Source: Tupaia tana (Eukaryota > Chordata > Mammalia > Scandentia > Tupaiidae). Taken from it: DNA of 64,000 nucleotides. The translations under genes were made by a program, and so were the position numbers. Shown here in pieces: positions 3,403 to 7,290 of this stretch (its first letter is position 1; every line of letters begins with the position of its first letter). The stretch is from the NCBI GenBank assembly GCA_026018925.1, contig JAKSZU010000018.1:2868505-2932504 (forward strand), written 5' to 3'. The notes beneath the pieces are model-generated. The model saw nothing but the letters and a program-made list of their open reading frames with translations, was not told the origin of the DNA and searched no databases.

Positions 3403-3672
3403 GCAGGGTTGTAGATGCTGCCCAGTTCTGGACCTGTCCCAGGAGGCCGAGTCCTCTTGAGGAGACTGCACCTCCTCTAAGAGCAGATGGAGAGCCCGCA
3501 GCCCTGCTCAGCACCAGCAAGCTCGCGTGGCATGGTGGCAGCCCGCTGTGGGAGACTGCGCACCAGCGAGTCTGCCGAGGTTTCTCAGAGAGCAAACAAT
3601 TGCCATGATTGGTTCTCTTCATAAAACCTGACCTTCGAAACCTTGCTCTGATTGGCCACTAGAATCCCTCAG

Positions 3673-3802
3673 ATTTGCATATCCGGCACCTCATGATTGG
3701 TCCAAAAGCAACCAATCATAACCCACCATTTACAACCAATCACGACCCACCATTTACAACCAATCATAACCCACCTTTTACGATCCACCAACGTGTATAT
3801 AA
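3673..3802 (+). promoter_or_regulatory. 5' LTR promoter: octamer, CCAAT array, TATA box
   Basis: A perfect POU octamer ATTTGCAT lies at 3673-3680. CCAAT boxes sit at about 3712, 3736 and 3760 with 24-bp spacing, preceded by inverted copies (ATTGG) at about 3607, 3652 and 3696. TATATAA lies at 3796-3802. CCAAT spacing near two helical turns is compatible with cooperative NF-Y binding. The octamer, the TATA box and the CCAAT array recur in the 3' LTR, which has four CCAAT units. Binding is inferred from motifs only. Confidence 0.75.
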
Positions 3803-3880
3803 CCACCATGCCTGGCCCACAATAGCCAGACAACCAGGAAGACAACGAAGACGACACAGAAGACCAGGAAGACGACGACC

Positions 3881-4133
3881 CCAGACGAGCCTGAAGAGCT
3901 GGAACACCGCACAGTCTCCAGATGACCCTGAAGAGTTGTAACACTACATCGTCTCCAGACGACCCTGAAGAGTTGTAACACTACATCGTCTCCAGATGAC
4001 CCTGAAGAGCTGTGACACCGCGTCGTCTCCGTGCTGCTCACAACAGACGACGCGACCCTAAAGAGTTGTAACAGTGTGTCGTCTCTGTGCTGTACCGTGC
4101 TGCCCACAATAAACAGACGACACTGTGTCGTCT
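3881..4133 (+). repeat. R-region 37-bp tandem units and inverted repeats
   Basis: Four 37-bp units run 3881-4028, each of the form CCAGAYGACCCTGAAGAG...CGTCT. Perfect inverted repeats follow: GCGTCGTCT (4020-4028) pairs with AGACGACGC (4045-4053) across a 16-nt loop. AGACGACA (4115-4122) pairs with TGTCGTCT (4126-4133) across a 3-nt loop, directly 3' of AATAAA. Both hairpins are preserved in the 3' LTR (6767-6800 and 6862-6880). They would form in the viral RNA, one right at the polyadenylation signal. Confidence 0.85.
4108..4113 (+). terminator. LTR polyadenylation signal AATAAA
   Basis: Canonical AATAAA just upstream of a perfect 8-bp hairpin. In the 3' LTR, where the signal would be used, the same position reads TATAAA, a weak variant. 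Confidence 0.8.
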
Positions 4134-4207
4134 CCGTGCTGTGACACTGTGCCGCTTGTCCCGGCTCTCACTCCTTCCCTCAGGAAACCTGTTCGACTGT
4201 CCCCCCG

Positions 4208-4265
4208 GGGTCGGGACACGTGGCTCCTGAACCGGGTCGGGACAAGTGGCGCTCGAACAAGGGAC
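4208..4265 (+). other. duplicated LTR end and tRNA-Lys-like primer-binding site
   Basis: GGGTCGGGACA at 4208-4218 (true LTR end) recurs 26 bp later at 4234-4244. Each copy is followed by two bases and a TGG-initiated primer-site-like stretch. The first, TGGCTCCTGAACC, is poor. The second, TGGCGCTCGAACAAGGGAC (4247-4265), matches the tRNA-Lys(UUU)-type site apart from one substitution and one extra A. So the LTR/PBS junction was tandemly duplicated and only the second copy looks usable. Confidence 0.8.
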
Positions 4266-4304
4266 CTGAGTACGAAGGGTCCAGTGAAGAGCACCCGAGG
4301 AGGG

Positions 4305-4408
4305 GACGGCAGAGAATCGTCCCGAAATAGGATGGCAGAGAATCGTCCCGAGATAGGACGACAGAGAATCGTCCCAAGATAGGACGGCAGAGAATCGTCC
4401 CAGTGAGT
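4305..4408 (+). repeat. 26-bp leader repeat (4 units) ending in a splice-donor-like site
   Basis: Units start at 4305, 4331, 4357 and 4383 with the shared core GGCAGAGAATCGTCCC (GACAGAG in the third). The last unit runs into CCA|GTGAGTAA (GT at 4403), a good match to a 5' splice site and in the expected place for the major retroviral donor upstream of gag. Donor use is inferred. Confidence 0.8.
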
Positions 4409-4445
4409 AACAAAGATTGCTTACTTATAAGTAATAAGGGTAATG

Positions 4446-5144
4446 ATGGGACAAGTAATAAGGGTAATGATGGGACAAGAGCTTAGCCAGCACGAACAAG
4501 AGCTTAGTCAGCATGAACAAGAGCTTAGTCAGCACGAACAAGAGCTTAGTCAGCACGAACAAGAGCTTAGTCAGCATGAACAAAAGCTTAGTCAGCACAA
4601 ACAAAAGCTTAGTCAGCACGAATTATTTGTTCAGGGCTTGAAAGAAGCCCTCAAGACACGGGGAGTTAAGATTAAGATTAAGCAGTTGCTCTCCTTTTTT
4701 TGATTTCTTAAAAGAAGTTTGTCCATGGTTCCCTCAAGAAGGAACCATAGATGAGAAAATGTGGAAAAGAGTATGGGACCCTTTAAAAGATTATTATACC
4801 ACATTCGGCCCAGAAAAAGTTCCCATGACTACTTTTTTGTACTGGAACTTAATAGACGAAATTCTCAGGCTCCGCACAGTGACCCCAAAATTGTCGCTAT
4901 AGTCACTAAGGGAGAGCAGATCATGCAAAATGATCAACCCCAGGAGGAGGCTATAGCCGCCTCAGATCTAACCAAGGATTCTGAAATTGAAAAAGAACAG
5001 GGAGAGGATCTTATTTCCCTAGATAGTGAGGAAGAAGTTAAAAGCCCTGAAGGCGAGACAAAACCCAAAAAATCCAAAAAACTAAAAAATAAAAACAACC
5101 TTAAGTCTCTACAAGAGCCAAAGAAAAACAAGTCAAAAACGGAG
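4446..5144 (+). pseudogene. gag: gag remnant: matrix and spacer region
   Basis: Degenerate betaretroviral Gag N-terminus. The frame opens with Met-Gly-Gln, a classic N-myristoylation start, duplicated by a 24-bp in-frame repeat (ATG at 4446 and 4470). Seven heptapeptide repeats follow, then a matrix-like segment (LFVQGLKEALKTRGVKIK). The frame is lost at a run of seven T's (4694-4700). The next frame gives recognisable matrix sequence with a CPWFP motif until a stop near 4901. A third frame carries an acidic then lysine-rich spacer (SLDSEEE, then KPKKSKK) up to the captured host segment. At least two frameshifts separate the parts, so no matrix protein can be made. Assignment rests on the myristoylation start, the CPWFP motif and the position after the primer site. 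Confidence 0.88.
4476..4622 (+). repeat. 21-bp in-frame repeat in gag (7 heptapeptide units)
   Basis: Seven units of CAAGAGCTTAGTCAGCACGAA encode QELSQHE, with E-to-K changes in units 6 and 7. No unit contains a stop or indel. The heptad length and polar composition could extend a helix, but there is no clear hydrophobic a/d pattern, so a coiled coil is not assured. Confidence 0.92.
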
Positions 5145-5342
5145 TCAGTTTTTTGAACAATGTTCTGCTGTTTATCTTATTTCTATATGGTCTCTGCTTG
5201 GGGTGGTTATGTGTTTATCATCAACCTTATTCCACTGCATGCGTTTGTGTTGTTACTGATGCAGAGATATAGCAAAAGAGTCTACATAGCATATAGCATT
5301 TTCTACATTGTGGGTTTAATATTATCCATGCAGATACCTTTT
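5145..5342 (+). pseudogene. STT3B: captured host STT3B coding segment inside gag
   Basis: Sixty-six codons, collinear and intronless, read as part of the membrane domain of STT3B, the catalytic subunit of the ER oligosaccharyltransferase complex that N-glycosylates proteins. Diagnostic short stretches seen here are [35 protein letters not shown] and [10 protein letters not shown]. From memory, STT3A differs at several of these positions (for example SSWGGYVFL, GRFSHRIYVAY), so STT3B is the better match. About four codons differ from the STT3B I recall: a Trp codon is now TGA (5154-5156), Cys to Phe, Val to Ala and Thr to Ile. Similarity stops at 5342, where gag sequence resumes in the same frame. 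It may extend a few codons 5' of 5145 (Lys-Thr). It would encode two or three hydrophobic helices. It lacks the catalytic WWDYG region, so it has no enzyme activity. Likely origin: template switching onto co-packaged host mRNA. Confidence 0.93.
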
Positions 5343-5636
5343 ATATCACAATTAGAGAAACTAAAAACCAATACAGACAAAGAAACAAAACTAGTTCAGG
5401 GATCACATGCGACAGACTTTGAGACATTCCCTGTTATGGAAACTATAGATCCCCAAGGACAGGTTTGGTGCCGTCACAGTAGGTTTATGGTAAAAGAGAG
5501 AAAGGGCAGCAGTTGCCCAATACGGAGCTACTGCTCCATATACCTTAGCTATAGTTGAAGCTATCACCGAGGGCTGGCTCACACCGTCTGATTGGCAAAC
5601 ATTAGCCTGAGCTATCCTTCTTAAATCTCAAAACTC
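5343..5636 (+). pseudogene. gag: gag remnant: pre-capsid and N-terminal capsid
   Basis: Directly after the host segment and in the same frame comes a short acidic/polar stretch, then [14 protein letters not shown], which resembles the start of a betaretroviral capsid. After a frameshift between about 5490 and 5518, the capsid-like [19 protein letters not shown] and [10 protein letters not shown] follow, with an in-frame TGA at 5608-5610 where an Arg codon is expected. Similarity ends near 5636, well short of the major homology region, because of the large deletion that joins this point to env. Not functional. Confidence 0.85.
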
Positions 5637-5650
5637 TCAGCCTTTATGTT

Positions 5651-6089
5651 CCCCTAACCGCAGCTACAGCTGCTGGCTCCACTGACTTGGGTTATTACGC
5701 CAAGTCACTGAGGATCTTATCTCAGACCAACTAGGTTCCCCGGCTGAGGTGGTTCTTCAAAATAGACGAGGTTTAAATCTCCTCCTGGCAGAATAGGGAG
5801 GTCTCTGTCTTGCTTTACAGGAACGCTGCTTTTATGCCAACAAGTCCGGCACCGTTTGTGATAACATACATCAACTCCAAGAATCTCTCCAACAACGTAG
5901 AAAACAACTCGCTGATGGTCTGCCTGGAACGGTCTCCTCCCTTTCCCGCTCCCCCTACTTGGCCCATTCATTGGCTTTTTAATTGTTTGCTCACTGGGAC
6001 CTGTTATATTTAATAGGTACATGTCATTCCTCAAACAGCAGATTGACTCACTTATGGAAGACCAACACCCCTATACTGGTCTCGCCTGA
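5651..6089 (+). pseudogene. env: env transmembrane (TM) subunit remnant
   Basis: From N to C: an Ala/Thr-rich fusion-peptide-like end (LTAATAAGSTDLG); a helical ectodomain with the conserved QNRRGLNLL stretch; and a CX6C motif (Cys codons at 5806 and 5827). Phe follows where type-D and gammaretroviral TM proteins normally have a third Cys. A membrane-spanning segment is at about 5955-6015 and a short tail ends at TGA 6087-6089. Frames change near 5695 and again at about 5930-5955, and a stop lies within the ectodomain (TAG at about 5794). The surface subunit is absent. The TM type places env with the gammaretrovirus-like envelopes carried by type-D betaretroviruses. Non-functional. Confidence 0.88.
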
Positions 6090-6305
6090 GGCGCTGAATC
6101 GGTTAGCCAAAGACGGGTAAGAGAGTCTGATGAACCCAATAACTGTTCAGTCCTTCCACCTAAGACAGGAGGTCCATCATAGCTATGGGACTCTCCAATG
6201 ACGGATAAGAATGGGCTTATGGTTCCATAAACGACTCCAACCTAAGACAGGCACGATTCCCCCAGGCCTTTACCTCATCTCTCAAATTAAAACAGAGAAG
6301 GGGGA
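6090..6305 (+). other. env 3' tail and polypurine tract
   Basis: 6090-6293 has no recognisable product. AGAGAAGGGGGA at 6294-6305 is the polypurine tract that primes plus-strand synthesis. It sits two bases before the LTR start TGTGGG at 6308, as expected. Confidence 0.8.
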
Positions 6306-6307
6306 TA

Positions 6308-6964
6308 TGTGGGAGGCTGCGCACCAGCGAGTCTGCCGAAGTTTCTCAGAGAGCAAACAATTGCCATGATTGGTTCTCTTCATAAAACCTGACCTTCGAA
6401 ACCTTGCTCTGATTGGCCACTAGAATCCCTCAGATTTGCATATCCGGCACCTCATGATTGGTCCAAAAGCAACCAATCATAACCCACCGTTTACAACCAA
6501 TCACGGCCCACCGTTTACAACCAATCACGCCCACCGTTTACAACCAATCATAACCCACCTTTTACGATCCACCAACGTGTATATAACCACCGTGCCTGGC
6601 CCACAATAGCCAGACGACCAGGAAGACAACGAAGACGACACAGAAGACCAGGAAGACGACGACCCCAGACGAGCCTGAAGAGTTGAAACACCGCACAGTC
6701 TCCAGACAATCCTGAAGAGCTGTAACACTACATCATCTCCAGACGACTCTGAAGAGTTGTGACACCGCGTCGTCTCCGTGCTGCTCACAACAGACGACGC
6801 GACCCTAAAGAGTTGTAACACTGTGTCGTCTCCGTGCTGTACCGTGCTGCCCACTATAAACAGACGACACTGTGTCGTCTCCATGCTGTGACACTGCGCC
6901 GCTTGTCCCAGCTCTCACTCCTTCCCTCAGGAAACCTGTTCGACTGTCCCCCCGGGTCGGGACA
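6308..6964 (+). mobile_element. 3' LTR (657 bp)
   Basis: Same ends as the 5' LTR. Differences: four CCAAT units instead of three, three 37-bp R units (6665-6775) instead of four, TATAAA in place of AATAAA (near 6855), and scattered substitutions, many at CpG. ATTTGCAT is at 6434-6441 and TATATAA at 6580-6586. The moderate number of differences indicates an integration that is not recent but much younger than the MIR/L2 relics. Confidence 0.93.
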
Positions 6965-7290
6965 GCCCACCAGGAGTCCATCTCCCATGCTTTTCCTCTC
7001 TGGTTTCAGAACCCCGGGGTTGTTTGGAACCCTCTGTTCTCCTGTCTCTAACTCTCGCTTCACGGGCTGCGAGGAGTCCGAGCGTCTCCACTCTCCTGCA
7101 GGGCCGGGGAGTGCAGCCTTCTGGTGATTTGGTGTGCCTCTGCCACGTCCTTCACCATGGCATCCTTAGGCTGGGGGAGCCCCCGGCTGGGAAGTGCGTC
7201 CCCTCAAGGGCGAAGTCCTCCTTCACTTCTGGGATGGGACAGGGTCACCGCAGCGCGTTCGCCATCTGATGGCCTTCCTTTCCTCCCGAA
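6965..7290. other. unique sequence 3' of the provirus
   Basis: The first six bases are the right target-site copy (GCCCAC). The rest is GC-rich unique DNA with no recognised feature. Confidence 0.6.

Follow-up and report, generated by a model that had tools for sequence, protein, structure and literature searches.

Retroviral captures of host mRNA are best known from tumours, after selection for growth genes. Acutely transforming retroviruses have a defective, helper-dependent genome with spliced host sequence in the sense orientation, in many cases as a fusion to gag; as a rule, viral sequence has been lost and the captured gene is a growth gene. The mouse ETn/MusD and VL30 elements are non-autonomous, pol-less and LTR-bearing, occur in many copies, have pol-carrying relatives, and mostly contain no long frames. 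Among endogenous retroviruses (ERVs), crocodilian CrocERV29 (KIT-ligand) and CrocERV31 (nectin3) hold captured host mRNA in several copies; as far as the available part of that report goes, whole ligand or receptor frames lie between pol and env or replace env, and the captured frame is reported to be under purifying selection (PMC4299795). Pangolin betaERVs are described as having a Lys primer site, betaretroviral gag-pol, a gamma-type env and an LTR of 387 nt, and the passages of that paper available to us mention neither host-gene capture nor STT3B (PMC12584738). Among the open-licence papers listed for STT3B together with endogenous retroviruses or retrotransposons, as judged from titles and the starts of abstracts, none described an ERV-borne STT3B.

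Here we analyse a stretch of 64,000 nucleotides from Tupaia tana (contig JAKSZU010000018.1, positions 2,868,505 to 2,932,504 of the forward strand), called the window below. A sequence-only reading of the window had proposed that a retrovirus in it carries, inside gag and in the sense orientation, a piece of the host oligosaccharyltransferase subunit STT3B.

Results

A pol-less betaretroviral element carries host STT3B within gag

The element is a pol-less betaretroviral ERV that spans 3547-6964 from LTR to LTR, with all its features on the forward strand. It is flanked by a target-site duplication (3541..3546 and 6965..6970, with five of six bases the same). The 5' LTR (3547..4244, TGTGGG...GGGACA), whose end was fixed by comparison with other copies, contains 24-bp and 37-bp tandem repeats, and differs from the 3' LTR (6308..6964) by a K2P distance of 0.041. 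Sequence inspection also located a tRNA-Lys-like primer binding site (4247..4264), which we take to be that of tRNA-Lys, and a polypurine tract region (6285..6307); the leader has 26-bp tandem repeats (4304..4401). The first part of gag (4470..5135), recognized by Pfam and by the frame in other copies, comprises a start with the MGQELSQHEQ repeat, the matrix and a linker region, and has two frame breaks in the window copy. The matrix is recognized as Gag_p10 (E 5.1e-19, frame 4642-4899), 5' of the STT3B piece. The latter (5136..5343) is followed by resumed gag, the N-terminal part of capsid (5344..5640, right border approximate), which is continuous with the gag of insert-free relatives, and by a gammaretroviral-type env transmembrane-subunit piece (5641..6120, borders approximate), fused to the capsid part through a deletion. 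Pfam TLV_coat matches the frame 5916-6086 at 2.1e-4, worse than Pfam's own cut-off. A gammaretroviral-type env (5916-6086) thus stands beside a betaretroviral gag, a combination that type-D-like viruses likewise have. The span between the LTRs is only 2.1 kb, so there is no space for pol, and no dUTPase, protease, reverse transcriptase (RT) or integrase was found in the window element. The paired LTRs with 6-bp target-site duplication, the Gag_p10 matrix, and the dUTPase, protease with G-patch, RT and integrase found among relatives place the element in the betaretroviral class (class II, type-D-like).

Several repeats were observed in passing. A 26-bp tandem unit with primer-site-like sequence lies at the end of the 5' LTR (4208-4258); the extra unit also ends the 3' LTR in 15 of 16 other copies and is absent from the window 3' LTR. 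At the start of gag (4475-4622), 21-bp repeats code for (ELSQHEQ)n, and their number varies among copies. The 24-bp LTR repeats bear CCAAT and are present in about three copies in one LTR and four in the other (3709-3781 and 6470-6565). Elsewhere in the window, at 1998-2978, there is a minisatellite of about 67 copies of a 15-bp unit, several frames of which are open.

On the sense strand the captured segment translates into STT3B-like protein interrupted by a single stop. Beyond this stop, 59 of 62 residues are identical to human STT3B (PDB 6s7t_A, residues 249-310; E 1e-31); the top STT3A chain reaches a much weaker 7.1e-20 with the same part, and Pfam STT3 matches the segment with E 6.9e-19. 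The alignment therefore bears out the proposed identity, the best protein match being STT3B rather than STT3A; as a source, STT3A was rejected both for the window piece and for the longer form described below. The extent first assigned to the piece (5145..5342, 198 bp) does consist of STT3B, but borders read from the junctions are wider, approximately 5136-5343 or 208 bp, corresponding to about residues 242-310 of human STT3B. The "about four codons" said to differ turned out to be three substitutions and one stop, which is nearly private to the window copy (one of 40 other copies examined has a stop at the same codon). That gag on either side shares one frame with the insert is true of the family, in which the insert is in frame at both sides as had been claimed for the capture, but does not hold for the window copy, which has accumulated four stops and three frame-shifting indels.

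A multi-copy family carries the insert

Searching the same genome for other proviruses with the insert, a check that the sequence-only reading had proposed, uncovered a multi-copy family. All 40 scored matches to a 218-bp query, the window included, covered it in full (279 first-look candidates). A gag probe listed 40 copies, and STT3B was present in each of the 20 further ones that were fetched. A protein search with the captured STT3B part gave at least 137 scored matches (332 candidates). In all 49 other copies whose surroundings were inspected (L002-L020, L022-L042, L044-L052) the insert lies in ERV sequence. Since the best-scoring copies were examined, these counts are minimum values and do not represent a random sample.

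Many copies are better preserved than that in the window. Only 13 of the 137 scored STT3B matches have a stop inside the match; the open frame around STT3B is at least 450 amino acids long in 32 of them and at least 300 in 77. Neither a stop nor a frame-shifting indel interrupts the aligned part of 11 of 40 aligned copies (coordinate copy included). The longest frames begin at the gag start, pass through STT3B and capsid, and reach into env; many copies keep this frame, of up to about 500 codons, open. The copy in the window belongs to this multi-copy, pol-less family but has decayed. In a protein search with the gag-STT3B frame, most of the listed matches (the best 120 of 686 proteins) cover 44-62% of the query; the five that were read, including three at 74-84% coverage, are all STT3 proteins without gag, and none is a gag-STT3B protein.

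Two observations concern individual long-insert copies. L049, L050 and L051 lie on one contig within about 115 kb, have identical match scores, and look like segmental duplicates. Another copy, at G000:C309:14145799-14146247, is interrupted by some 280 bp, and 17 bp of the query are matched on either side of the break, the pattern that a short retroelement and its target repeat would leave.

Insert-free relatives define the capture site

The longer form of the insert has 357 bp, or 119 codons, and corresponds to human STT3B residues 192-310. In one such copy 114 of 119 residues are identical to human STT3B (E 1.4e-72, against 1.4e-48 for STT3A). With a probe made of gag and the 5' part of STT3B, the 40 scored hits (source copy included) divided into 21 full matches, a single partial one, and 18 confined to gag. 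In three insert-free copies that were read, gag continues unbroken where long copies carry the 357 bp. Comparison with these copies shows TA on both sides of the long insert and not a single gag base lost. The 5' junction is identical in seven long copies at the DNA level and in an eighth at the protein level, which establishes a single common insertion site. A probe from an insert-free copy gave 40 scored hits, 30 of which span the site without insert while 10 match only 3' of it; seven of the 30 have the window-type capsid-env deletion and 23 do not. As the probe itself was insert-free, these counts are no frequencies.

The flanks are indeed gag, as had been supposed: Gag_p10 lies upstream, and downstream the sequence continues as gag in relatives without STT3B. 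The segment is likewise no ordinary part of related gag genes, and the possibility that the 198 bp are normal gag was rejected because relatives read across the same site without it. Absence of the host-derived piece from the same site in close relatives makes this a host-gene-transducing ERV. The window type resembles a long type from which an in-frame deletion has removed the 5' side of the insert together with the adjoining gag.

Relatives also retain parts that the window element lacks. In a trio of near-identical long-insert copies, gag continues through capsid, zinc knuckle and dUTPase (judged by eye in one member); another member has dUTPase and RVP, and an env match follows about 0.6 kb or less past the protease, so close that RT and integrase must be missing there. 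One insert-free relative that was read further encodes RVP, G-patch, RT, RNase H and integrase. Of the downstream open stretches of at least 60 amino acids, 5 of 9 were scanned in the insert-free relative and 5 of 11 in the long-insert one. In a phylogeny of the segment 3' of the insert, a copy that lacks the insert but has the window-type deletion falls inside the insert-bearing short group (96/85), and the enzyme-linked insert-free pair groups with long copies (95/89); this tree of 50 rows is weak, good support being confined to 6 of its 47 inner branches.

The insert derives from spliced STT3B RNA

The host STT3B gene is on a different contig from the window. Mapping the insert onto it, also envisaged in the sequence-only reading, succeeded for the 3' side. 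An STT3B exon matches the final 17 nt of the insert and extends past its border, which puts the 3' end of the captured piece within an exon; STT3B and gag share a 2-nt TA match at this end. No match to the first three quarters or so of the insert was found in the 15 kb preceding that exon. The insert therefore lacks one intron at least, some 15 kb or more in length, and the source was spliced RNA, in sense orientation, as seen for the 3' side. A search with the 5' part of the insert scored all 26 candidates, none of them on the STT3B contig, where the gene sequence is partly covered. The next 174 residues of STT3B gave five matches among 18 candidates, three on the STT3B contig and two STT3A-like by identity, and no retrocopy.

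Copies have moved recently

LTR distances were obtained for 16 of 20 copies (L023-L042), the other four having a missing, incomplete or disturbed LTR. K2P ranges from 0 to 0.138 with a median of 0.021, and is at most 0.0061 in six of the 16; these six copies with nearly identical LTRs demonstrate recent movement. An exact 6-bp target-site duplication flanks 12 of 16 other copies, which hence are separate integrations. The mammalian substitution rate is about 2.2e-9 per site per year, at which, roughly, the window copy would be some 9 million years old and the youngest copies under 1.5 million. Lack of pol, retention of the cis elements and many separate insertions characterize a non-autonomous LTR element. 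The copies were probably mobilised in trans; judging by the genes of one relative, the enzyme-bearing insert-free elements are a plausible helper.

Tests for selection on the chimeric frame

Variants in 39 copies were classed site by site as private or shared and as nonsynonymous (N) or synonymous (S); the sets for this comparison and for pN/pS exclude one long-insert copy and the window copy. In gag 5' of the insert there are 100 N and 32 S private variants and 43 N and 32 S shared ones (p 0.008, or 0.016 without CpG transitions). Of two wrong-frame controls in gag, one gave p 0.15 and the other p 0.0125 in the opposite direction. STT3B has 23 N and 8 S private and 7 N and 3 S shared variants (p 1); the values for gag 3' of the insert and env are p 0.35 and p 0.80. 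Within a set of 21 copies chosen through gag, STT3B has a pN/pS of 0.96, matrix 0.72, linker 0.37, the gag that follows the insert 0.50, and env 1.07. In 18 copies picked by STT3B likeness, the corresponding values are 0.45 (a figure from few changes and a biased choice of copies), 0.65, 0.57, 0.60 and 0.84. Selection is weakly indicated in gag and not clearly in STT3B.

Among eight long copies STT3B diverges less (K2P 0.043 in the 5' part, 0.026 in the 3' part) than flanking gag (0.082 and 0.095), and its singletons number 28 N and 11 S. Purifying selection is not our preferred cause: save in the 18-copy set picked by STT3B, the low divergence comes mostly without amino-acid bias, which fits better with a capture younger than the gag lineages. 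The piece would then have spread among them by recombination, and looks like a passenger.

A hydropathy scan of three short-form frames found two strong segments per frame; in three long-form frames there were two or three, which partly overlap. The putative chimeric protein would be a Gag fragment with membrane helices, and such a membrane-anchored fragment may be made. The Gag start of the family is, we assume, a myristoylation-type motif. One could imagine that STT3B helices from the ER membrane gave a putative Gag an assembly address at the ER and aided its spread, the piece then sweeping through gag backgrounds by recombination; we regard this as improbable.

Discussion

The most probable explanation, to which we give a probability of about 0.82, is that spliced STT3B RNA was copied into gag, that the resulting pol-less elements were mobilised in trans, and that the STT3B piece is a passenger moving by recombination. 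A 357-bp piece of host RNA, comprising 119 codons for membrane sequence of the enzyme, would have been copied into gag of a type-D-like betaretroviral ERV in the sense orientation and in frame, where it came to lie between the matrix/linker part and capsid with no gag sequence lost. Most likely RT left the gag RNA at the 2-base TA match, continued on a packaged STT3B mRNA, and returned to the same spot in gag. Later, pol and other parts would have been deleted and the LTRs, primer site, leader and polypurine tract kept; the window subfamily would have arisen by in-frame loss of the 5' side of STT3B and adjoining gag. Enzymes of insert-free relatives would have copied such pol-less elements in trans. 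The STT3B piece, a passenger in a long chimeric frame, may have shifted between gag backgrounds through recombination, to which the nesting of an insert-free copy in the insert-bearing short group points.

Template switching onto a co-packaged mRNA had been proposed from the outset; the RNA origin stands, by virtue of the missing intron, and the switch out and back is what we infer. Zero gag loss is a departure from the simple oncogene-capture model, and a double switch back to the same base is unusual. The same junctions would arise if a fragment of STT3B cDNA had filled a staggered break in proviral gag DNA, leaving the 2-nt TA repeat, and the altered provirus had then been copied. The intact gag and the TA on both sides are equally compatible with this fill-in and with the double switch, and the captured piece is an internal fragment of coding sequence, which also suits the fill-in. 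A free cDNA fragment is, however, needed; the data do not separate the two routes, and we hold the fill-in to be unlikely. A LINE-1 processed pseudogene of STT3B that landed in the provirus would also be host coding sequence without at least one intron, but the junctions have neither poly(A) nor a long target repeat (7-20 bp), which led us to reject it; moreover, both ends of the coding sequence are missing and the neighbouring 174 residues revealed no retrocopy. This origin is very improbable.

Whatever its origin, the gag-STT3B protein could be functional and kept by selection, either for the element, by anchoring Gag in the ER membrane, or by the host. The long open frames (at least 450 amino acids in 32 and at least 300 in 77 of 137 matches), the 11 of 40 aligned copies free of stops and frame-shifting indels, the shortage of amino-acid changes among shared variants in gag 5' of the insert (p 0.008), and the pN/pS of 0.45 in the small and biased STT3B-picked set all speak for function. 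Youth alone, however, keeps frames open; shared and private variants of STT3B do not differ (p 1), its pN/pS in the gag-picked copies is 0.96, singletons in the long copies stand at 28 N to 11 S, and one wrong-frame gag control deviates as well (p 0.0125, opposite direction). We consider a selected function improbable, and prefer to see the piece as a passenger. A captured piece can then be carried along by a large family even where constraint on the piece itself is not clear. A single genome here displays insert-free relatives, a longer insert, a trimmed form and the amplification of a housekeeping-enzyme capture, and the junction rules of such captures become testable.

Capture of host genes by ERVs is already known; what is new is that an ER membrane enzyme was taken up, in frame within gag and with no gag loss. 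The elements resemble acutely transforming retroviruses in their sense, spliced host piece, gag fusion and defective genome, but here the capture cost no base of gag at its site and concerned a housekeeping gene. With ETn/MusD and VL30 they share the organization of a pol-less, multi-copy LTR family with pol-carrying relatives, and differ in the gag-STT3B-capsid-env frame, up to about 500 codons long and open in many copies. The Lys primer site, betaretroviral gag-pol and gamma-type env transmembrane part are like those of pangolin betaERVs, as described in the accessible part of the report, but the window LTRs, at 658-698 nt, are unlike the 387-nt LTR given there (PMC12584738). Like CrocERV29 and CrocERV31, insofar as the available part of their description extends, the family represents a host mRNA captured by an ERV and present in multiple copies; in contrast to them, it carries an internal piece of an ER enzyme, in frame within gag, in a pol-less family that shows no clear constraint on the piece (PMC4299795).
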